Assembly (NCBI GenBank): GCA_017516005.1
Contig: JAFWDU010000005.1
Span: 1 to 64,000 of the forward strand
Direction: 5' to 3'
DNA length: 64,000 bases
Source of the DNA: Oscillospiraceae bacterium
Lineage (GTDB): Bacteria > Bacillota > Clostridia > Oscillospirales > Oscillospiraceae
Shown here: piece by piece, positions 9,386 to 64,000 of the stretch
How the letters are laid out: each line of letters begins with the position of its first letter
Position numbering within the stretch: the stretch's first letter is position 1
Notes under the pieces: model-generated
Seen by the model: only the letters and a program-made list of their open reading frames with translations
Database searches by the model: none
Told to the model about the DNA's origin: nothing
Made by a program: the position numbers and the translations under genes

Positions 9386-11179
9386 TCAGATCAGAGTCTC
9401 CATTTCATCCAGCAGGGAATCAAAGAGTTTCAGGGCTTCCGTGACGGGCTCCGTGGTGCTCATATCCACACCCGCACCCTTCAGCAGCGAAATGGGATCC
9501 TTGCTGCAGCCCCCGGACAGGAAATTCAGATAATCCTGACGTTCCTGCTCCCCGCCATTCAGAATCCGGCGGGACAGAGCGATTGCCGCGGCGTATCCCG
9601 TTGCATACTGGAACACGTAGTAGTTCATGTAGAAATGCGGAATTCTTGCCCATTCCAGAGCAATCTGGTCATCCACGACCATATCCGGTCCGAAATACTG
9701 TTCATTCAGTTCTCGGTACATGCTGCAGAGGGTATCCGCCGTCAGAGTCTGCCCCTGCCCGATCAGTTCCCCACATTTGAGTTCAAATTCCGCAAACATG
9801 GTCTGGCGGTACAGCGTTCCCTTAAACTGCTCCAGAAAATGGTTGATCAAGGCTGCCCGTTCCCGCTTGTCGCTGGTTCTCGCCAGCAGGTACTCCATCA
9901 GGAGCGCCTCATTGCAGGTGGAGGCCACTTCCGCCACAAAGATCACATAGTCAGCGTCCACAAAGGACTGGGTGCGATTGGAATGGTAGCTGTGCAGCGC
10001 ATGTCCCATTTCGTGCGCAAGCGTGAACTGGGAGTCCAGGGTTCCTGTGTAGTTCAGCAGCACGAAGGGATGCACATGGGCACCGGCAGAATAGGCGCCG
10101 GACCGTTTTCCCACGTTCTGATAAACGTCAATCCAGCCTTCGTCCATTCCCTTGCGGAGCAGCTGCTGGTACTCTTCACCCAGCGGCGCCATAGCCTGCA
10201 CAACAGTGCTGCATGCTTCCTCATAGGGAATCTTTCTGCTGGAACCCGCTACGAGCGGTGCGTAGACATCATAGAAGTGCAGCTCGTCCACACCCAGAAT
10301 TTTCTTGCGTAGACGGACATAGCGGTGCATCTTATCCAGATTCTGATGAACCGCTTCAATCAGATTTTTGTACACCTCTACCGGGACATTGTTTTCATCC
10401 AGCGCGGCATGGAGCGCTGAGTCATACTTTCTTGCGTTCGCGAAAAACTGAAGCGCTTTTCCCTGGGCATTGAGTGCGGCTGCCACCGTATTCCGATGCT
10501 CTCCGAATACACTGTAAAGTTTTTCGTATGCGTCCTTCCGGAGCGTCCGGTCTTCGGACTCCTCACAGGAGACAAAAGTGCCCTGACTCAGGGGGTGCGC
10601 ATTTCCGTTCGCATCTACTGCATCCGGGAACTTGATGTCCGCATCGGCAAACATGGAATAAATATTATACGGAGACTGCGCCATTTCGCCTGCTGCCGAG
10701 AGGATTTTCTCTTCCGCATCAGAAAGGATGTGCTCCTTTCTGCGGCGCATATCCTTCAATAGACGGCGGTAACGTTCCAGCTCCGGCTTTTCCGCAAAGA
10801 AAGCCGCCAACGCATCATCGGTAATCGCAAGGATCTCCGGAGTGTCAAACGCAGTCGCAGAGGCAAACGACACGTAGGCGCTCATCATCTGCCCGTTCAT
10901 GTTCTGATACTCTGCGACTCTGGTATCCTGATTTCCCTTATGCTCCGCGTAATGCATCAGATTTTCCAAAAGCATGTTTGCCTGCTCGGAACAGGCCAGA
11001 TAATCATACAGTGCCTGCGCCGAAGAGCCGAGCTTCCCGGCATAGGCGCCAGCCTGCGGAATCATTTCCTGGTAGCGTTTCAGGTCCGCCTGCCATGCTT
11101 CATCAGAGGCATACAGATCCTCCAGATGCCACATATATTTCGGATCCAGCTCTGCCCGTTCGGGAATGCGGTCTGCCAT
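9386..11179 (-). CDS. pepF: oligoendopeptidase F, M3 family zinc metallopeptidase
   Basis: Cleaves short peptides in the cytoplasm. The 597-residue protein has the N-terminal PepF domain (DLYASDEAWQ start) and the M3 catalytic domain with the HEMGH zinc motif at about residues 389-393, with a downstream Glu in 'ASTCNEALL'. Length is normal. Two in-frame ATGs exist, at 11194 and 11179. The second has GGATGG at 6 nt and is chosen; the first lies only about 15 nt after the expected transcription start and lacks an SD. Followed by a GNAT gene in the same operon. Confidence 0.93.
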   Translation of the reverse strand: MADRIPERAELDPKYMWHLEDLYASDEAWQADLKRYQEMIPQAGAYAGKLGSSAQALYDYLACSEQANMLLENLMHYAEHKGNQDTRVAEYQNMNGQMMSAYVSFASATAFDTPEILAITDDALAAFFAEKPELERYRRLLKDMRRRKEHILSDAEEKILSAAGEMAQSPYNIYSMFADADIKFPDAVDANGNAHPLSQGTFVSCEESEDRTLRKDAYEKLYSVFGEHRNTVAAALNAQGKALQFFANARKYDSALHAALDENNVPVEVYKNLIEAVHQNLDKMHRYVRLRKKILGVDELHFYDVYAPLVAGSSRKIPYEEACSTVVQAMAPLGEEYQQLLRKGMDEGWIDVYQNVGKRSGAYSAGAHVHPFVLLNYTGTLDSQFTLAHEMGHALHSYHSNRTQSFVDADYVIFVAEVASTCNEALLMEYLLARTSDKRERAALINHFLEQFKGTLYRQTMFAEFELKCGELIGQGQTLTADTLCSMYRELNEQYFGPDMVVDDQIALEWARIPHFYMNYYVFQYATGYAAAIALSRRILNGGEQERQDYLNFLSGGCSKDPISLLKGAGVDMSTTEPVTEALKLFDSLLDEMETLI

Positions 11180-11215
11180 AACAACACCATCCATTCATAA
11201 ATAATCGGTACGCTC

Positions 11216-11244
11216 ACTCTAGCAGACTTTCCCTGAAAATGCAA
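11216..11244 (-). promoter_or_regulatory. pepF promoter
   Basis: Minus-strand TTGCAT (11239-11244) and TAGAGT (11216-11221), 17-bp spacing, about 37 bp before the chosen pepF start. Confidence 0.6.
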
Positions 11245-11298
11245 GGCGGTATCAGTGTCCGGGCACTGACCGAAATACTTGAAAATCCGAAAAAAGAT

Positions 11299-11328
11299 TT
11301 GGTATCTGTTCATAATCTATGCTAGAAT
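11299..11328 (+). promoter_or_regulatory. DMT transporter promoter
   Basis: TTGGTA (11299-11304) and TAGAAT (11323-11328) with 18-bp spacing and a TGC just before the -10. The leader to the ATG at 11451 is about 115 nt with no recognised riboswitch. Confidence 0.5.
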
Positions 11329-11450
11329 GGGCGCAAAACAGTCCGTCATTTCCCTGCTGTTCAAGGCGGGACTCTTTCCTGCGGGCGGCGGCTTCCGAAA
11401 ACCATTCCGCGCATTATTACTTACCTCCCCCATCAGAAACCAGGTGAACC

Positions 11451-12368
11451 ATGAAAAGGAACAGTATACTCGGCAGTCTTCTGCTGACACTCGTCGCGGT
11501 GATCTGGGGCACAGCCTTTGTCTTTCAGCGGGCTGGAATGGATCAGATTACCCCGATCACCTTCGTCGCATCACGAATGACCATTTCCGCCGTGGCCGTT
11601 GGAGTGGTTACGCTCCTCCCGTTCCTGCGCAGCTCCGCATCCGGCAGTACCGGCACGCCGCGATTCAGCAGAAGCGAGCTGACCGGCGGACTTCTGTGCG
11701 GTGTTTTTCTTTCAATCGCCAGCATCTTCCAGCAGATGGGGATTGTGTATACCCCGGCTGGGAAGGCAGGCTTCATTACCGCCATGTACATTCTTCTGGT
11801 GCCCGTCATCCGGTTTCTGATGTTCCGGAAGAAAACCAGCTGGCATGTTTGGCTTGCTGTGGGAATCGGCATAGTCGGCATGTATTTTCTCTGCATGACG
11901 CAGAGTCTTCGCCTGACTCGGGGAGATGTGCTGATCTGTATCTGCGCGCTCCTCTTCAGCGGGCATATTCTCTGCTGCGATTTCTCTGTTGAAAGAGGAA
12001 ATGCCGTCCGCATTTCTGCAATTCAGTTCTTCTCCGCTACGCTGATCTCATGGATTGCCGCTTTTATACTGGAAAAGCCCAGTTTTTCGGGTATTGTTTC
12101 GGCGGCTGTCCCCATTCTTTACTGCGGTGCGATCTCCGGCGGCGTCGGCTATACCCTGCAGATTGTTGCCCAGCGGCATACGGACCCTACCATAGCCTCC
12201 CTGCTGATGAGCCTGGAATCGGTTTTTGCTGTCATTGCCGGCGCGCTGATTCTCCGTGAGCGCATGCAGCCGAAAGAGCTCATTGGCTGCATAATCATGT
12301 TCGCCGCAATTGTTCTGGCTCAGATCCCTCAGAAACGCAAATCTGCCTCATCCGGCGGACCATCCTGA
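11451..12368 (+). CDS. EamA/DMT family transporter
   Basis: The 305-residue integral membrane protein has ten hydrophobic helices in two EamA repeats. The first starts 'LLLTLVAVIWGTAFVFQRAGM'; the second ends with the conserved 'PTIASLLMSLESVFAVIAGALILRERM' segment typical of DMT exporters. Likely exports a metabolite or amino acid; the substrate cannot be predicted. Monocistronic, with a strong terminator. Confidence 0.88.
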   Translation: MKRNSILGSLLLTLVAVIWGTAFVFQRAGMDQITPITFVASRMTISAVAVGVVTLLPFLRSSASGSTGTPRFSRSELTGGLLCGVFLSIASIFQQMGIVYTPAGKAGFITAMYILLVPVIRFLMFRKKTSWHVWLAVGIGIVGMYFLCMTQSLRLTRGDVLICICALLFSGHILCCDFSVERGNAVRISAIQFFSATLISWIAAFILEKPSFSGIVSAAVPILYCGAISGGVGYTLQIVAQRHTDPTIASLLMSLESVFAVIAGALILRERMQPKELIGCIIMFAAIVLAQIPQKRKSASSGGPS

Positions 12369-12411
12369 GTCCATTACCATGATTCGGACAGCCAGATCCG
12401 GAGCACAAGGT

Positions 12412-12460
12412 AAAGACAGGCACCAGTTCTCCTTTTTCCGGAGTTCTGGTGCCTGTCTTT
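12412..12460. terminator. terminator after DMT transporter / proC
   Basis: Arms 12412-12432 and 12440-12460 pair with one internal 2-bp mismatch, flanked by T runs. Convergent genes on both sides make it probably bidirectional. Confidence 0.75.
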
Positions 12461-12504
12461 CTCTATCTGCCTGCTTTTGATGTCATAAGTTTATGGCTCA
12501 TTAT

Positions 12505-13299
12505 TCAGCCTTTCAGTCCCAGCGTCCGCTGATAGGCAGCGTCCACAGCGTCCAGAAGAGCCGCGCGGAATCCGTTGGCTTCCAGTGCCGCTACGCCTTC
12601 AATCGTGCTTCCGGCGGGAGAGCATACTTCGCCGCGGAGCACTGCCGGATCCTTGTCGGAATTCAGTGCAAGTCTTGCCGTGCCGGCAACCGTCTGCAGC
12701 GACAGAAGCTTTGCCTGATCCCGTGTCAGGCCGCAGCGGATTCCCGCATCCATCATTGCCTCCACAAACATACACACGAAGGCGGGACCGCAGCCGGAGA
12801 TGGCGCAGGCCGCGTCAATCTTGGACTCATCCAGTTTCTGGATTCTTCCTGCATGTGCGAGAAGTTTCAGGAACGTATTCTCTTCCTCCTCCGTCACAGC
12901 GGAAGAAGGGCTGTAGAGGATCATTCCCTCACCGACTGCCGCCGGCGTGTTGGGCATGATCCGGATAACCGGGTAAGATCCCAGCTCCTCTTCAATTTTG
13001 GAAATCGGGATGCCGGCAGCCATCGTCACTACAACAAAACGGTCCCTGCGGCCGCTGAGGATGTCCCGGATCTGTCCCGCCAGGGAATGAATCATCTGAG
13101 GTTTGACACCCAGAAAGATATATCCGCACGTTTGCGCAACTTCCTCCGCCGTGCTGGGGACAACGCCGGATGCGCTCTGAAGCCGGAGGAGCTTCTCCCG
13201 ATCCAGATCCGCGCCGAACACTTCCATTCTGCTCTTTGCGGCTGCGCCTGCCAGTACGCCGCCCATATTGCCGCAGCCGATAAATCCTGCTCTGATCAT
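12505..13299 (-). CDS. proC: pyrroline-5-carboxylate reductase
   Basis: The last step of proline synthesis: reduces pyrroline-5-carboxylate with NAD(P)H. The 264-residue protein opens with the Rossmann motif GFIGCGNMGG. It carries FLGVKPQ, IRIMPNTPAAVGEGM and, near the C-terminus, the ProC signature 'LRGEVCSPAGSTIEG'. The ATG at 13299 follows GAGGTGAG, which rules out the longer frame to 13461 that overlaps proA. Third gene of proB-proA-proC, 4 bp after proA. Confidence 0.95.
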   Translation of the reverse strand: MIRAGFIGCGNMGGVLAGAAAKSRMEVFGADLDREKLLRLQSASGVVPSTAEEVAQTCGYIFLGVKPQMIHSLAGQIRDILSGRRDRFVVVTMAAGIPISKIEEELGSYPVIRIMPNTPAAVGEGMILYSPSSAVTEEEENTFLKLLAHAGRIQKLDESKIDAACAISGCGPAFVCMFVEAMMDAGIRCGLTRDQAKLLSLQTVAGTARLALNSDKDPAVLRGEVCSPAGSTIEGVAALEANGFRAALLDAVDAAYQRTLGLKG

Positions 13300-58270: not shown

Positions 58271-58615
58271 ATGGAATGGCAATTGTCTGAAGACAGGCCG
58301 ATCTTCCAGCAGCTCTATGAACAGCTGTGCCGCCGGATTCTTACCGGTGTATATCCCCCGGGTTCCCGGATGCCTTCGGTACGGGATGTCGCATCGGAAG
58401 CAGGGGTGAACCCGAATACCATGCAGCGGGCGCTGCAGCAGCTAGACAGCGTCGGTCTGACCGAGTCGACACGCACCAGCGGACGTACGGTAACCACAGA
58501 CGAGGCGCTGATGCGTCAGATCCGCGAGGAACTCGCACAGGGTGCTGTGCAGCAGTTCTACGCAGAAACCTCTGCCCTTGGTTATACACGGGAAGAGGCC
58601 AAACAGCTTCTTTAA
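58271..58615 (+). CDS. GntR family regulator, YtrA subfamily
   Basis: The 114-residue protein has a winged helix ('RPIFQQLYEQLCRRILTGVYPPGSRMPSVRDVASEAGVNPNTMQRALQQLDSVGL') and a short C-terminal dimerisation helix only, which is the YtrA form. YtrA-type genes regulate an ABC transporter encoded next to them, as here. AGGTG SD. Ends 17 bp before the ATPase gene. Confidence 0.92.
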   Translation: MEWQLSEDRPIFQQLYEQLCRRILTGVYPPGSRMPSVRDVASEAGVNPNTMQRALQQLDSVGLTESTRTSGRTVTTDEALMRQIREELAQGAVQQFYAETSALGYTREEAKQLL

Positions 58616-58631
58616 TCTGGAGGAAACGATT

Positions 58632-59366
58632 ATGAATGAAAATGTGATTCAATGCATCAATCTCAGCAAGGATTACGGCAGCGGTCCTGTTCTGGAGCAG
58701 CTGAATCTGACCATCGGCAGCGGACGGATCATCGGTCTCCTCGGCCCGAACGGCACCGGTAAGACTACGCTCATCAAGATTCTGGCAGGCCTGCTGCAGC
58801 CCACTTCCGGTCAGGTTCTGGTGGATGGACATGTCCCCGGCCCGGAAAGCAAAGCGGTTGTCAGCTATCTTCCGGACAAGATGTATTTCGCTGACTGGAT
58901 GAAAGCCAAGGATCTGCTGGATCTCTTCGAAGATTTCTATGCAGACTTCGACCGCGCAAAAGCGGAGCAGATGTGTGCTTCTCTGGGCATCGTTCCCACG
59001 CAGCGCATGAAGACCATGTCCAAAGGCACGAAGGAGAAGATGCAGCTGGTTCTGGTCATGAGCCGCAAAGCAAAGCTCTATCTTCTCGATGAACCCATTG
59101 CCGGTGTTGACCCGGCAGCCCGTGATTTCATTATGAACACGATTCTGACCAACTACTCCCAGGACGGCACCGTGCTGATCTCCACCCACCTGATCGGCGA
59201 CATTGAGCGCGTGCTCGATGAAGTGCTCTTCCTGAAGGACACCAAGGTCGTTCTCCACGACACTGTGGACAACATCCGGGAGCAGCAGGGCAAGAGCGTT
59301 GACGCCCTGTTCCGTGAGATGTTCCGCATGAACCCGATTGAGGGAGGTAATCAAGATGCTCAGTAA
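58632..59366 (+). CDS. ABC transporter ATP-binding protein
   Basis: The 244-residue ATPase has Walker A GPNGTGKTT (about residues 37-45), 'LFEDFYADFD' and Walker B 'LYLLDEPIAGVDP'. The signature is deviant: 'MSKGTKEKMQL' instead of LSGGQ, seen in YtrB/EcsA-like proteins. Likely a bacitracin-type or cell-envelope-responsive transporter (inference). GGAGG SD; 11-bp overlap with the permease. Confidence 0.9.
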   Translation: MNENVIQCINLSKDYGSGPVLEQLNLTIGSGRIIGLLGPNGTGKTTLIKILAGLLQPTSGQVLVDGHVPGPESKAVVSYLPDKMYFADWMKAKDLLDLFEDFYADFDRAKAEQMCASLGIVPTQRMKTMSKGTKEKMQLVLVMSRKAKLYLLDEPIAGVDPAARDFIMNTILTNYSQDGTVLISTHLIGDIERVLDEVLFLKDTKVVLHDTVDNIREQQGKSVDALFREMFRMNPIEGGNQDAQ

Positions 59367-60183
59367 ACTGCTTAAATACGATCTGAGCTCCATGCTGAAA
59401 TCATTTCTGCTGATCTGGGGCGCCGCACTGGTCCTGGCATTCGTCAATCACTTCACCCTTGGCGGTCTCCATTTTGAATCCAGCAGTTTCATGGTCTCTT
59501 CCCTGCTGAAGGTTGTTCCGTTCCTTATGTTTCTTGCCATCATGGTTTCCATGGCTGTGCTGACTCTGATCTTTGTCATCCAGCGCTTCTACAACGGACT
59601 TCTCAAGGATGAAGGCTATCTCATGTTCACGCTTCCCGTGAAGCCCTGGCAGCTGATTACTTCCAAAGGCATCTCCGCCGTTCTGGTCAATATTATCAGC
59701 GGGATTATCGCGATCGTTGCGATTATGATTCTCTTCCCCTGGAAAGACGTCGGCGAGTTTATCCGCGAGTTCTGGAATGGTCTCTTCCTGAATGCACCGA
59801 TTCCCGTCTGGCAGATTGTCGTCCTGATCCTGGAATTCCTGTTTATGGTTCTTGTCAATGTTGCGAAGAGCATTTATCAGATTTACGCCGCGATCGCACT
59901 GGGACATCAGTTCAAGAAGCACCGCGTCGGTATGGCGTTTGTGATGTATCTCCTGATCAGCTTGGCGCTGTCCACAATTGCTTCCTCTATCCTGCAGCTT
60001 ATATTCAGCTCCGGCAGCATTACGCTGGATACTCTTCTGGATACCTTCTCCAGATGGAACTGGTCATTCTTCGGCTCAGTCAGCTTCGGCCTCTGGATTC
60101 TGATTCTGATTGCCGGCGTACAGCTTGTCGCATTCCACATCATTGCAGAGCGTCTTCTGAGCAAGAGACTCAACCTCGAATAA
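59356..60183 (+). CDS. ABC-2 type permease protein
   Basis: The 275-residue protein has six hydrophobic segments: about 18-38, 55-78, 108-130, 150-180, 195-218, 240-265. It is encoded 11 bp inside the ATPase gene and forms the membrane partner. Sequence outside the topology is not a recognised family with known substrate. GGGAGG SD. Confidence 0.83.
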   Translation: MLSKLLKYDLSSMLKSFLLIWGAALVLAFVNHFTLGGLHFESSSFMVSSLLKVVPFLMFLAIMVSMAVLTLIFVIQRFYNGLLKDEGYLMFTLPVKPWQLITSKGISAVLVNIISGIIAIVAIMILFPWKDVGEFIREFWNGLFLNAPIPVWQIVVLILEFLFMVLVNVAKSIYQIYAAIALGHQFKKHRVGMAFVMYLLISLALSTIASSILQLIFSSGSITLDTLLDTFSRWNWSFFGSVSFGLWILILIAGVQLVAFHIIAERLLSKRLNLE

Positions 60184-61076: not shown

Positions 61077-61170
61077 ACAACACCTGAGTAATCTGCATAC
61101 GCGCTAAACATTAAAAATTCTCCGTTGTGCGTCTGGATTATGATAATATAATTACGTAAACTTATATATC

Positions 61171-61218
61171 AGATAAACGGGCTGGTTCTCCTCCTCAGGA
61201 TAGCCAGCCCGTTTATCT
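61171..61218. terminator. bidirectional terminator between nitroreductase and MacB-like gene
   Basis: Perfect 15-bp arms 61171-61185 and 61204-61218 between convergent genes. Confidence 0.8.
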
Positions 61219-61227
61219 GGTCATTTA

Positions 61228-62331
61228 TCATCTGCGAAGGCGTTTTCCCCTTTGCGGCTTACCGGATTTCTGGATTTCCGCCTGCTGCTCCTCCCAGCGT
61301 TTTCTTCTCTTCCGCTGGATGGCTTCATCCGCCGCCTGCGGGATGCGTGTCTCCGCCCATTTTCCGCCTTTTCGGAGTCCGATAATCACAAACACAATCA
61401 GGGTGATTACCGGTGTCAGGCCAAAGAGCACTGCCAGAAGAAGGAGAAGCGCCAGATAGTCCTCAGTCATACGGACCGCATTCTCCCAGTACGGGTAGAG
61501 AATGCTTTTCAGACGCATGGAACGTTTTCCGTAATCCCGGATTACCTGAATCAGGTTCTTGATCTTATAACGCGCGGAGTTGTCGACGATGTCTCCTCTG
61601 CCAATCGGGAAGCTCTCTTTCATGAGATTCAATCCATAACCGGAAAGAATTTCCGGAAGGACAATCTCATAGCAGGTAAATTTCACTTCCGCCATGCTTG
61701 AAAGCGCACTGTAGCTCATGAAGATGCCTGCCGTCTGATCCCAGGCAGCCTTGGACGCAAAGTCCGTTTCACGGCGGATGACTCCGGCAACATAGAACGG
61801 CTGATTTCCGATATAGACCGTCAGTCCAGCCACATCCATACCGCCGAATACCTGCCACGCGGTCACCTCATCCAGAACCACTCTGTCCTGCATGAAATCA
61901 TTCGGCGAGAGATAACTGCCGCTGTACAGATCAAAGGGATGGAACAAGAAGTAGTTGCCTTCCACTCCAACCGCCTGAACTGTCGCGCTTCCATGCTCCG
62001 TGGATACCGTTACCGTTCCGAATGCGGAAGCCGCATCCGAAAAAAGGCTCCCGCCTTTCGGTGCCGTCAGGGATGCATCGACAAATTTCTGTGCCAGGGT
62101 CTCCCGAAAACTCTCAATTTCACCCAGTTCCATTCCACCATCTTCCGGCAGGAAACAGGCAATCTGAGCGAAATTCATCTCGCTTTCACCACGCCAGCTT
62201 TTTGCCGCATGAATGGTGCGCAGTTTTCCGGAAACAATGAAGAATGCTACGATGCATGCAAGGCAAAGGACAATCAGGATGGCATCTACAACAAGGAGCC
62301 TCCAGGGAAGCGCGTGTTTCTTCGCTCTCAT
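61228..62331 (-). CDS. MacB periplasmic-core-like membrane protein with two spans
   Basis: The 367-residue protein has an N-terminal span (about 11-33), an extracytoplasmic domain of about 250 residues with MacB-core features (VVLDEVTAWQVFG, 'GLTVYIGNQPFYVAGVIRRE'), and a second span (about 292-318). It ends in a 49-residue, strongly basic cytoplasmic tail. Classic MacB has four spans; here the three-helix FtsX part is missing. ATG overlaps the stop of the adaptor gene by 4 bp. No ATPase lies downstream; it may be outside the window or the protein may act without one. Function unknown. Confidence 0.7.
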   Translation of the reverse strand: MRAKKHALPWRLLVVDAILIVLCLACIVAFFIVSGKLRTIHAAKSWRGESEMNFAQIACFLPEDGGMELGEIESFRETLAQKFVDASLTAPKGGSLFSDAASAFGTVTVSTEHGSATVQAVGVEGNYFLFHPFDLYSGSYLSPNDFMQDRVVLDEVTAWQVFGGMDVAGLTVYIGNQPFYVAGVIRRETDFASKAAWDQTAGIFMSYSALSSMAEVKFTCYEIVLPEILSGYGLNLMKESFPIGRGDIVDNSARYKIKNLIQVIRDYGKRSMRLKSILYPYWENAVRMTEDYLALLLLLAVLFGLTPVITLIVFVIIGLRKGGKWAETRIPQAADEAIQRKRRKRWEEQQAEIQKSGKPQRGKRLRR

Positions 62332-64000
62332 GATGCATCCGGCAGCCGCACCTGGGCGCCGGCCTCAATCGGGCGGTTTGATGTTGTTATGACGAAATCT
62401 CCTGGAGAGAGTCCTACAACAGCCGTCTGGGTATCATCACTGGCAAGTACTGTGACATCGACACGGCGGGCTGTATAACGTGTGGATAGGGCGTTGGATT
62501 TTTCCACCACGACAAGAACGTAGTTTCCGTTTGTATCACTGCGAAGGGCACTGTTGGGAATCAGGGCTTCATAGGTGGCACTCTTCTGTCCGATTGCAAG
62601 CGTCACGTTTGAACCGGGCTGGACACCCTCGCCTGTGAGGCGGAATACCAGGAATCGACCGGTCTGGGGATTCTGCGGATCCGGAATGATCTTTTCCAGC
62701 GTTGCTGTTACGCCACCGGAGTAGTAGTTGGAAAGCTTCGCCTGATCTCCGATTGTCACGCGGCGGGACTGGTCGGCCGTACAGCTGATACGGACGGTAT
62801 AGCCGCGGTCTTTGATTGTGATGGTCGCAAGCGGTGTCTCAGCGTTTGCAGTATTTCCAGCGGTGATGTTAACCGCACTGATAACACCTGATACTCTTGC
62901 CTTGACCTCAACCGCATCTGACTTTTCTTCCAGTTCAGTAATCTCAGATTTCTTCTTTTCAATGTCTTCCTTATCTTTCTGAAGGCGTAGGGCATCAGCA
63001 TTTCCTAAAGAAAGAGCGAAAGTTGCGTCTTCCAAAGCTTCCTTTGCGGAATCTAAAGTTGCTGCAGCTGATTGTGCGTCATTTAGGTTAGAGATGTAGT
63101 CCTGCAAATCTTCGATACGTTGCTGAATTCTTTCTTCCGATTCTTCAAGCAACTGAATTCGGTTTTCCACCGCATTCACAGCCATTTGAACCGCATTATA
63201 CTTTGATGCATTAGCGTTTTTATCACGCTCATATTGCTGGATATTATTCTCAGATTCAGTGATTTGATTTCTTAGTTCCTCTGTCGCATCTTTTGATTCC
63301 AATATTTCTTTAAGCTCACTCTGAAGTTCAGACAGGCTTTCTTCAATGACTGATTTATTCAGCTGTTCTTGCTCAAGATTGTTTGTTGCTGTTGTAATCT
63401 CTCTAAATGCCTCACGAAGCATAGCATAATCATCATCTGAAATATCTTCTTCTGCTATACCTGCGCGAAGCATTGCATTTTTGAGTGTTTGTTCGTTTCC
63501 TTCTCTGACATATACCTCCATCAGAGCAAGAGTTTTTTCACTTGTATAGTATGGATCCTCAACTACATATGCTTTTAGTTCATTATAACTTTCCCCATAC
63601 AGGTTTAAAGCATTATTGTATGCAGCTTCTGCTGAGTTCACTGCGGCATTCGCATTTTCTAGCTCTTCCCTTTTTTCACTTATTTCCTGCTGTTTTTCGT
63701 CAATCAGTTCTTTAAACACTTCTTGAGTATTGTGCTTATCTAGCAACTCCTGATTTTTGGCTTTTTTCTCCTTTTCCTCTTCCAATTTAGTCGTTATCGA
63801 TTCCATTTCGTTTTTTAATTCCTGTAAATACTCCTGGTTTGCTAAATAATCCTTATCAGATTTAGCATCGTTTACTGCTTTTGACGCTTCGGATTTTTCT
63901 CTATCCAGTGTTTTTTGAGATGCCTCAGCAGAAACAAGTAATGATTTTATTCTACTTGGATCAACATTAGAGTAAAGTTTATAGTTTTCCAATGCCTCGT
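62328..64000 (-). CDS. HlyD/MacA-like adaptor with giant coiled coil (partial)
   Basis: At least 557 residues; the N-terminus lies beyond the right edge (the frame is open to 64000; the TTG at 63992 is not a reliable start). Visible parts: a very long coiled coil (about residues 10-360 from that TTG), rich in Glu/Gln/Lys/Asn, then a lipoyl-like segment 'VSGVISAVNITAGNTANAETPLATI', a beta-barrel domain, and a membrane-proximal domain 'GDFVITTSNRPIEAGAQVRL'. The coiled coil is much longer than MacA or TolC adaptors need. Coding of the coiled-coil part (about 63000-64000) is clearly more AT-rich than the rest. Confidence 0.8.
   Translation of the reverse strand, partial: EALENYKLYSNVDPSRIKSLLVSAEASQKTLDREKSEASKAVNDAKSDKDYLANQEYLQELKNEMESITTKLEEEKEKKAKNQELLDKHNTQEVFKELIDEKQQEISEKREELENANAAVNSAEAAYNNALNLYGESYNELKAYVVEDPYYTSEKTLALMEVYVREGNEQTLKNAMLRAGIAEEDISDDDYAMLREAFREITTATNNLEQEQLNKSVIEESLSELQSELKEILESKDATEELRNQITESENNIQQYERDKNANASKYNAVQMAVNAVENRIQLLEESEERIQQRIEDLQDYISNLNDAQSAAATLDSAKEALEDATFALSLGNADALRLQKDKEDIEKKKSEITELEEKSDAVEVKARVSGVISAVNITAGNTANAETPLATITIKDRGYTVRISCTADQSRRVTIGDQAKLSNYYSGGVTATLEKIIPDPQNPQTGRFLVFRLTGEGVQPGSNVTLAIGQKSATYEALIPNSALRSDTNGNYVLVVVEKSNALSTRYTARRVDVTVLASDDTQTAVVGLSPGDFVITTSNRPIEAGAQVRLPDAS

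Follow-up and report, generated by a model that had tools for sequence, protein, structure and literature searches.

In textbook descriptions, membrane fusion proteins and MacB heads belong to exporters. In MacAB-type transporters (type VII, among them the Gram-positive YknXYZ and Spr0693-0694-0695), a MacB periplasmic core is paired with an adaptor of the MacA fold, and the Gram-positive members have no outer-membrane channel. Carbohydrate importers of the CUT1 class (MalFGK2/Ugp-type, with shared MsmX-type ATPases) consist of a binding lipoprotein, two BPD_transp_1 permeases with EAA loops, and a MalK/UgpC-type ATPase that is often unlinked. Here, a locus with parts of both kinds is described from the genome of an Oscillospiraceae bacterium (945,943 bases in 23 contigs, 69.9% complete). 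The stretch analyzed, hereafter the window, comprises bases 1-64,000 of contig C5 (88,681 bases). At its right edge lie the genes of a MacA/HlyD-type adaptor (ADAP) and of a two-span protein with a MacB periplasmic core domain (CORE), which are the last two genes of a five-gene operon, with CORE last. This one operon probably encodes a carbohydrate ATP-binding cassette (ABC) importer of the CUT1 type (MalFGK2-like), with ADAP and CORE as two accessory subunits, a reading to which a probability of about 0.62 was assigned.

The operon is read from the minus strand in the order solute-binding lipoprotein, PermA (MalF-type permease), PermB (MalG-type permease), ADAP, and CORE. It shares the binding lipoprotein and the two permeases with EAA loops with the CUT1 importers, and its MalK/UgpC-type ATPase would, as there, often be unlinked, but it adds the adaptor and the MacB-core protein; moreover, the first outer loop of PermB is enlarged, and the binding protein has a further N-terminal part of about 370 residues. 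With MacAB-type systems it has in common the pairing of core and adaptor and the lack of an outer-membrane channel, whereas an FtsE-type ATPase, spans 3-4, and the coupling-helix region are missing and importer permeases are found instead. The hairpin between lipoyl halves is also that of the HlyD and EmrA adaptors, but the operon holds neither an HlyB-type ABC exporter nor a major facilitator superfamily partner. The mycobacterial lipid importers of the Mce1 type are similar by analogy, being ABC importers whose extracytoplasmic subunits are hexameric and which have a helical needle; no relationship is claimed, no MCE family is among the Pfam matches of any operon protein, and the operon encodes a type-1 sugar-binding lipoprotein. 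No description of a cassette of importer, adaptor, and MacB core was found in the literature searched, a body that most subscription journals and all bioRxiv preprints lay outside.

Organization of the operon

The ADAP and CORE genes overlap by 4 nucleotides (nt), in agreement with an earlier note on the window, which had called the pair translationally coupled. PermA and PermB likewise overlap by 4 nt, and ADAP starts 6 nt past PermB. A sigma-70-like promoter (TTGACA-17-TATACT, 11 of 12 matches) was located 30 nt upstream of the binding-protein gene. As ADAP runs to C5 64430, the window truncates it, and its N-terminal span lies outside; the sequence to the right was read from L002 (C5 60001-80000).

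PermA and PermB are MalF/MalG-type permeases with EAA loops, the loop glycine being present in 40 of 40 PermB and 33 of 40 PermA sequences. In the case of the binding protein, a type-1 sugar-binding lipoprotein, the C-terminal half matched sugar-binding structures (best CbpC, 7x0o, E 8.6e-34). Among 19 such proteins, 17 matched SBP_bac_1 and 16 carried a lipobox-like motif by a simple pattern. A beta-propeller fold of the N-terminal part is only a guess, because just 2 of the 19 gave a weak Pfam match to a propeller.

The earlier note had held that the pair fits neither MacAB nor HlyD-type exporters, and this was borne out; CUT1-type importer permeases lie to the right. Its suggestion of an export device is unsupported: the operon is that of a CUT1-type importer that depends on a binding protein. 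The statement that the window has no ATPase was true of this operon only: ABC ATPase matches lie within the window at C5 49582, 51405, and 58692, none of them in the operon of CORE and ADAP. A complete MacB permease with its ATPase beside the pair, which the note had named as the finding that would make this an ordinary transporter, was looked for to the right, and no MacB permease or FtsE-type ATPase adjoins the pair in L002.

Recurrence of the cassette

Co-occurrence was surveyed in 295 genomes of the order. At E 1e-3, CORE matched 38 genomes. Relatives at E 7.8e-14 or better were present at 25 places in 24 of them; the other 14 gave weak matches (3.4e-5 or worse), and in those inspected (L027-L032) the number of hydrophobic segments was four or five, which is also that of ordinary MacB. 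When the N-terminal 110 residues of ADAP were searched in the same genomes, matches at E 1.8e-39 or better came from exactly these 24, again at 25 places, with the next-best match at 2.3e-14. Since CORE and ADAP recur together in 24 of the 295 genomes, the pair is no chance effect. Beyond the order, CORE was found in 22 of 391 genomes of a class sample at E 1e-20 and in 4 of 398 genomes of a phylum sample at E 1.1e-66 or better (next 7e-17), the present genome being included in both counts.

The loci compared numbered 46, namely the present one, 23 of the order, 18 of the 21 other class carriers, two from the phylum sample, and two from a single-sequence scan of genome contigs. One genome of the order (G254), represented by one copy, has two equal-scoring copies of CORE, and likewise of ADAP, in opposite orientation (CORE at C29 93847-94740, plus strand, and 161487-162380, minus strand). 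The order PermA-PermB-ADAP-CORE on one strand was found in 41 of the 46 loci, and in the other five (L033, L053, L054, L055, and L057) a contig end interrupts the locus; L034 was counted as complete, although its core is cut by a contig end and its adaptor is split over two frames. Neither the PermA/PermB gap nor the ADAP/CORE gap exceeds 28 nt in any of 40 complete loci. A binding-protein profile match lies within the fetched stretch in 32 of the 41 loci. A MalK/UgpC-type ATPase adjoins the cassette in five of them (L035, L037, L041, L165, and L166), and the three adjacent ATPases scanned scored 468, 445, and 476 against the NCBIfam UgpC cut-off of 432. No FtsE-type ATPase was found in the loci of the family, where the ABC ATPases adjoining the cassette are of the MalK type, except for an unrelated pair upstream in L151 and its relatives.

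All 20 weaker adaptor matches listed in the order search with the ADAP N-terminus were also followed up. Ten adjoin an ordinary MacB-type protein (L201, L203-L208, L210, L213, and L214), with an ABC ATPase detected in six, and nine sit with PermA/PermB-type permeases; for L216, on a 3.3 kb contig, the neighborhood cannot be told. Among the importer-linked forms, L209, L217, and L219 combine a short adaptor of 341 amino acids (aa) with a four-span core, L215 combines a 397-aa adaptor with a four-span core, and L202 and L218 have a 592-aa adaptor, a core with five hydrophobic segments, and a different gene order with the permeases last. The cores of L202 and L209, the two scanned, gave no FtsX match. 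In the core tree, 25 sequences (17 of the family and 8 divergent, including L216) were split from 13 ordinary MacB proteins with a support of 0.998. In L217, a second importer cassette lies in tandem (9418-12937); its core has four spans and belongs to another branch, and its adaptor part is no more than a 146-aa adaptor-like open reading frame (ORF).

Marks that may link the adaptor to the permease

The membrane helix of ADAP ends, with little variation, in LTFFSNTIMN, at the outer end of the helix. A pattern built from these helix ends was found in 42 of 42 family adaptors and 9 of 10 divergent-importer adaptors, in none of 10 MacB-linked adaptors, and in 3 of 404 other ORFs. By sequence identity, PermB is a distinct subfamily: the cassette PermB proteins of four other carriers share 64-73% identity with the present one, while all other paralogues in the 11 genomes searched are at 36% or less. 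Its first outer loop measures 53-64 residues in the family (n = 40) and 44-50 in the divergent importers (n = 10). In 23 ordinary PermB paralogues, some of which are near-identical pairs, the median is 37 residues, with 34-43 in 21 of them and 47 and 58 in the others. The motif SFMxxxE occurs in 38 of the 40 family members, 4 of the 10 divergent forms, and none of the 23 ordinary paralogues. Correlations of 0.86-0.93 were obtained between the distance matrices of the four proteins; as this is expected for linked genes, it was not used as proof.

The core protein

CORE matched MacB_PCD at E 1.2e-9, with 39.2 bits where the cut-off is 27. Against structures, the family profile matched MacB and YknZ (3ftj, 4.2e-9; 5lil, 2.2e-8; 5f9q, 6.9e-5). 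In the profile-profile comparison with 21 ordinary MacB proteins, a probability of 99.3 was obtained over CORE residues 51-228 and nothing beyond. As in MacB, the periplasmic core domain lies between spans 1 and 2 (21 of 23). The two hydrophobic segments of CORE cover residues 5-42 and 285-323, and the profile scan gave no FtsX match. The four spans, FtsX region, and coupling helix of MacB are thus not present in CORE, nor is an FtsE/MacB-type ATPase fused or adjacent to it, none being encoded in its operon. In MacB, according to passages of PMC5985334, spans 1 and 2 reach into the stalk that bears the head, spans 2 and 3 have the coupling helix between them, and spans 3-4 pack on the outside. 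Because the profile match stops at residue 228, FtsX is absent, and MacB is built in that way, we infer that CORE corresponds to a MacB stalk and head devoid of the motor coupling.

In the motif directly before span 2, P280 and E283 are invariant in 23 aligned relatives, and the family form is P-x-[WYF]-E. Two hydrophobic segments were found in 41 of 45 CORE proteins; L036 and L040 have a third inside the core domain, L156 has four, and L057 is cut. A generalization that the core is always two-span was narrowed in view of L156 and of the divergent forms with four to five segments. The four-segment CORE of L156 (11587-12918) lies in an otherwise standard cassette and is possibly an intermediate between the four- and two-span forms.

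As to the earlier note, its description of a MacB-type core with two spans and no FtsX part was confirmed by these results. The strongly basic tail that it had pointed out is indeed basic here (net charge +10 in 47 residues); across 40 relatives, however, the net charge ranges from -11 to +10 and the length from 0 to 101 residues, so it is not a family feature.

The adaptor protein

Like adaptors of the MacA/HlyD type, ADAP has a span at its N-terminus, a helical hairpin flanked by lipoyl halves, and a beta-barrel. It matched HlyD_3 (E 8e-10) and Biotin_lipoyl (2.6e-5), and its best NCBIfam match, "efflux RND (resistance-nodulation-division) transporter periplasmic adaptor subunit", was below the model cut-off. 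A search of the PDB with the ADAP profile was topped by the coiled coils of RAD50, dynactin, and myosin, so that only the rows of the MacA/EmrA/HlyD type were informative. The giant coiled coil announced by the earlier note was recovered as a hairpin of about 408 residues (101-508). As a distinctive or defining trait, hairpin length was dropped, as control adaptors beside ordinary MacB proteins attain lengths of 563-642 aa in the same order.

For the window part of ADAP, a shallow AlphaFold model (predicted template modeling score, pTM, 0.38) has helices at 14-147 and 188-353 (fragment numbering) with a predicted local distance difference test score (pLDDT) mostly above 70, and low confidence at the ends, the tip, and the C-terminal domains. 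The second helix, predicted to be single and 166 residues long, would measure about 25 nm (about 250 Å) at 1.5 Å per residue. For comparison, passages of PMC5768738 give the Spr0693 hairpin barrel a height of 56 Å and the Gram-positive Spr0693 assembly about 154 Å, the latter being comparable to the inner wall zone. At about 250 Å, the predicted ADAP helix would be long enough to enter the wall.

The earlier note had also stated that a TolC-type partner is absent, and this was upheld: no match to PF02321 was found in the present genome (70% complete) or, counting it, in 35 of the 41 carriers searched. Matches over the cut-off occur in 5 of the 41, none of them beside a cassette, and 3 of the 7 matches lie in frames of 1141-1339 aa. 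One carrier (G1010) has a 443-aa frame with two TolC-family (OEP) matches at C43 20730-21515, its cassette being elsewhere (C26).

Proposed arrangement and alternative explanations

The importer reading rests on the conserved gene set and order, the homologies of the domains, the co-occurrence of ADAP and CORE in the same genomes, the MalK-type ATPase at five cassettes, and the marks on the ADAP helix and the PermB loop. By analogy with MacA, ADAP would form a six-copy ring placed on a CORE dimer as MacA is placed on MacB heads; the six-fold ring and the membrane-proximal contact of adaptor and head are taken from MacAB, as described in parts of PMC5985334 and PMC5768738. CORE would retain only the MacB stalk and head (span 1, periplasmic core, and span 2) and, because the motor-coupling part is absent, could not run its own cycle. 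The membrane helix of ADAP and the two spans of CORE would pack against PermA and PermB, with the PermB outer loop as docking site, and ring and hairpin would make up an extracytoplasmic conduit or docking ring, a vestibule keeping the binding protein above the permease. The long hairpin may extend into the cell wall, and MalK, mostly encoded elsewhere and shared, would drive import. We infer complex formation, substrate, and import direction, and the cargo is likely an oligosaccharide. If so, the annotation of adaptor genes would change, exporter parts would be apparently obligate partners of a binding-protein-dependent importer, and the MacB stalk and head would be separable from the motor. 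It would also offer a testable answer to how monoderm fiber degraders bring large glycans through a thick wall.

Several observations weigh against an accessory role in import. The helix pattern was written post hoc, after the sequences had been viewed, and a stricter, longer pattern of the PermB loop was found in only 13 of 40 family, 6 of 10 divergent, and 0 of 23 ordinary sequences. Nine of the 41 complete loci have no binding-protein profile match in the fetched stretch; three of these are at or near contig ends, and six belong to one genus (g458), in which L158 encodes a protein of 473 aa that matches SBP_bac_1 below the threshold. The present genome (70% complete) has no OB_MalK match, and its UgpC-like ATPase, which has its own permease, scores 328 against the cut-off of 432. 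OB_MalK is not discriminating: besides 21 of 23 other carriers, 14 of 20 non-carriers have it, the distribution to be expected of shared ATPases (PMC7658222). Moreover, three importers (L211, L212, and L220) have an adaptor and no core that could be found, and the adaptor tree puts the importer-linked adaptors in no single clade and leaves the groups unseparated. The AlphaFold model of CORE, made from three sequences, was poor (pLDDT 38.5, pTM 0.23) and was not used. The hairpin ranges from 162 to 495 residues (median 335) among 43 family members and is very short in the divergent form with the 341-aa adaptor, so spanning the wall cannot be the general function; given the short-hairpin forms, reach would be an option of the system and not its definition.

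A wider proposal, which is tentative and rather doubtful, is that of a class of "adaptor-bearing" ABC importers in Clostridia-related monoderms, in which the ring, usually on a motorless MacB-derived head, would be a wall-penetrating oligosaccharide conduit. Such a conduit would be the monoderm counterpart, by convergence, of the Mce1 needle, a hexameric structure of about 225 Å from the membrane according to part of a preprint (PMC9882608), and the two-, four-, and five-span heads and headless forms would reflect a stepwise recruitment of exporter parts.

The alternative that survives best, though unlikely, is that ADAP and CORE are a scaffold or anchor and not a conduit, holding the importer or the binding protein in or near the wall or sensing envelope load; they may still bind the permease. 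The roughly threefold variation in hairpin length, its near absence in one divergent form, and the motorless CORE agree with such a role, as does the peptidoglycan binding reported for YknX in a passage of PMC5985334. ADAP nevertheless keeps its lipoyl and barrel domains, and the ring of MacA-type adaptors has a central pore, as part of PMC5768738 describes. Scaffold and conduit are not cleanly separable by sequence.

It is considerably less probable that the pair is a remnant of a MacAB-like exporter, or an envelope device, that is merely co-transcribed with the sugar importer and functions on its own. In favor of this, both parts are homologs of parts of MacAB, and the four distance matrices would correlate simply through linkage. 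Against this stand the lack of FtsE-type ATPases in the family's loci and of a coupling part in CORE, the strict gene order and tight spacing in 41 loci, the importer-specific helix motif and PermB loop, and the other core variants and core-less forms, which likewise sit with PermA and PermB. Export of a polysaccharide or glycoconjugate by the whole operon is very improbable: the other known adaptors of this fold come from exporters, but the MalF/MalG-type permeases with EAA loops, the sugar-binding lipoprotein, and the MalK/UgpC-type ATPases are importer hallmarks. The case of an ordinary MacB-type transporter whose core subunit was duplicated or has decayed is practically discounted, as nothing was found in its favor, no MacB permease or ATPase lies to the right, and the core family is conserved beyond the order and, within it, in 24 of 295 genomes.

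Feature coordinates and neighboring genes

Table 1. Features of the ADAP/CORE operon, in coordinates of contig C5, which equal those of the window up to position 64,000.
Feature	Position	Strand	Remarks
Inverted repeat	61170..61219	.	23-nt arms, 91% complementary, 4-nt loop; 8 nt past CORE stop
CORE, two-span protein with MacB periplasmic core domain	61228-62331	-	367 aa
CORE basic C-terminal tail	61231..61362	-	residues 324-367
CORE span 2 (hydrophobic stretch)	61363..61479	-	residues 285-323
CORE motif xPYWENxxR	61471..61497	-	residues 279-287, directly before span 2
CORE MacB_PCD match	61699..62268	-	residues 22-211
CORE span 1	62242..62298	-	residues 12-30, by hydropathy
ADAP, MacA/HlyD-type adaptor	62328-64430	-	700 aa; window part 62328..64000, residues 145-700
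ADAP second lipoyl half, beta-barrel, and membrane-proximal part	62331..62906	-	residues 509-700
ADAP coiled-coil hairpin, window part	62907..64000	-	
ADAP single descending helix, predicted	62940..63437	-	residues 332-497, 166 residues
ADAP two short helices, predicted hairpin tip	63465..63539	-	residues 298-322, low confidence
PermB, MalG-type permease	64437-65309	-	290 aa
PermA, MalF-type permease	65306-66193	-	295 aa
Solute-binding lipoprotein	66220-68697	-	825 aa

The inverted repeat past CORE possibly marks the end of the operon; it has no T-run and was not listed by the terminator scan. To its left, a separate small operon on the plus strand (window 58271-60183) encodes, by reading, a GntR-like regulator, an ABC ATPase (also matched), and a multi-span protein. 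Upstream of the importer operon, a small AbrB-like ORF was seen by eye only on the minus strand, at about 8910-9150 of L002.

In one family (L151, L152, and L154, with L153 and L155 by size), a 301-aa ABC ATPase and a 724-752-aa protein with 8-9 predicted spans are encoded directly upstream of PermA. This pair is ABC-2-like and unrelated, and the ATPase of L151 is nearest to PmtA/DrrA-type models, below the cut-off. The neighbor scan took in 20 of 133 listed ORFs. Most other neighboring genes were unrelated, such as those of pyruvate kinase (by eye), SipL, Mg-chelatase, and Gly3P dehydrogenase. In agreement with a sugar importer, though in these two loci of one genus only, cellulase genes lie directly downstream of two cassettes, encoding GH9+CBM3 (L157, 12744-15353) and GH5 (L163, 13133-14629).

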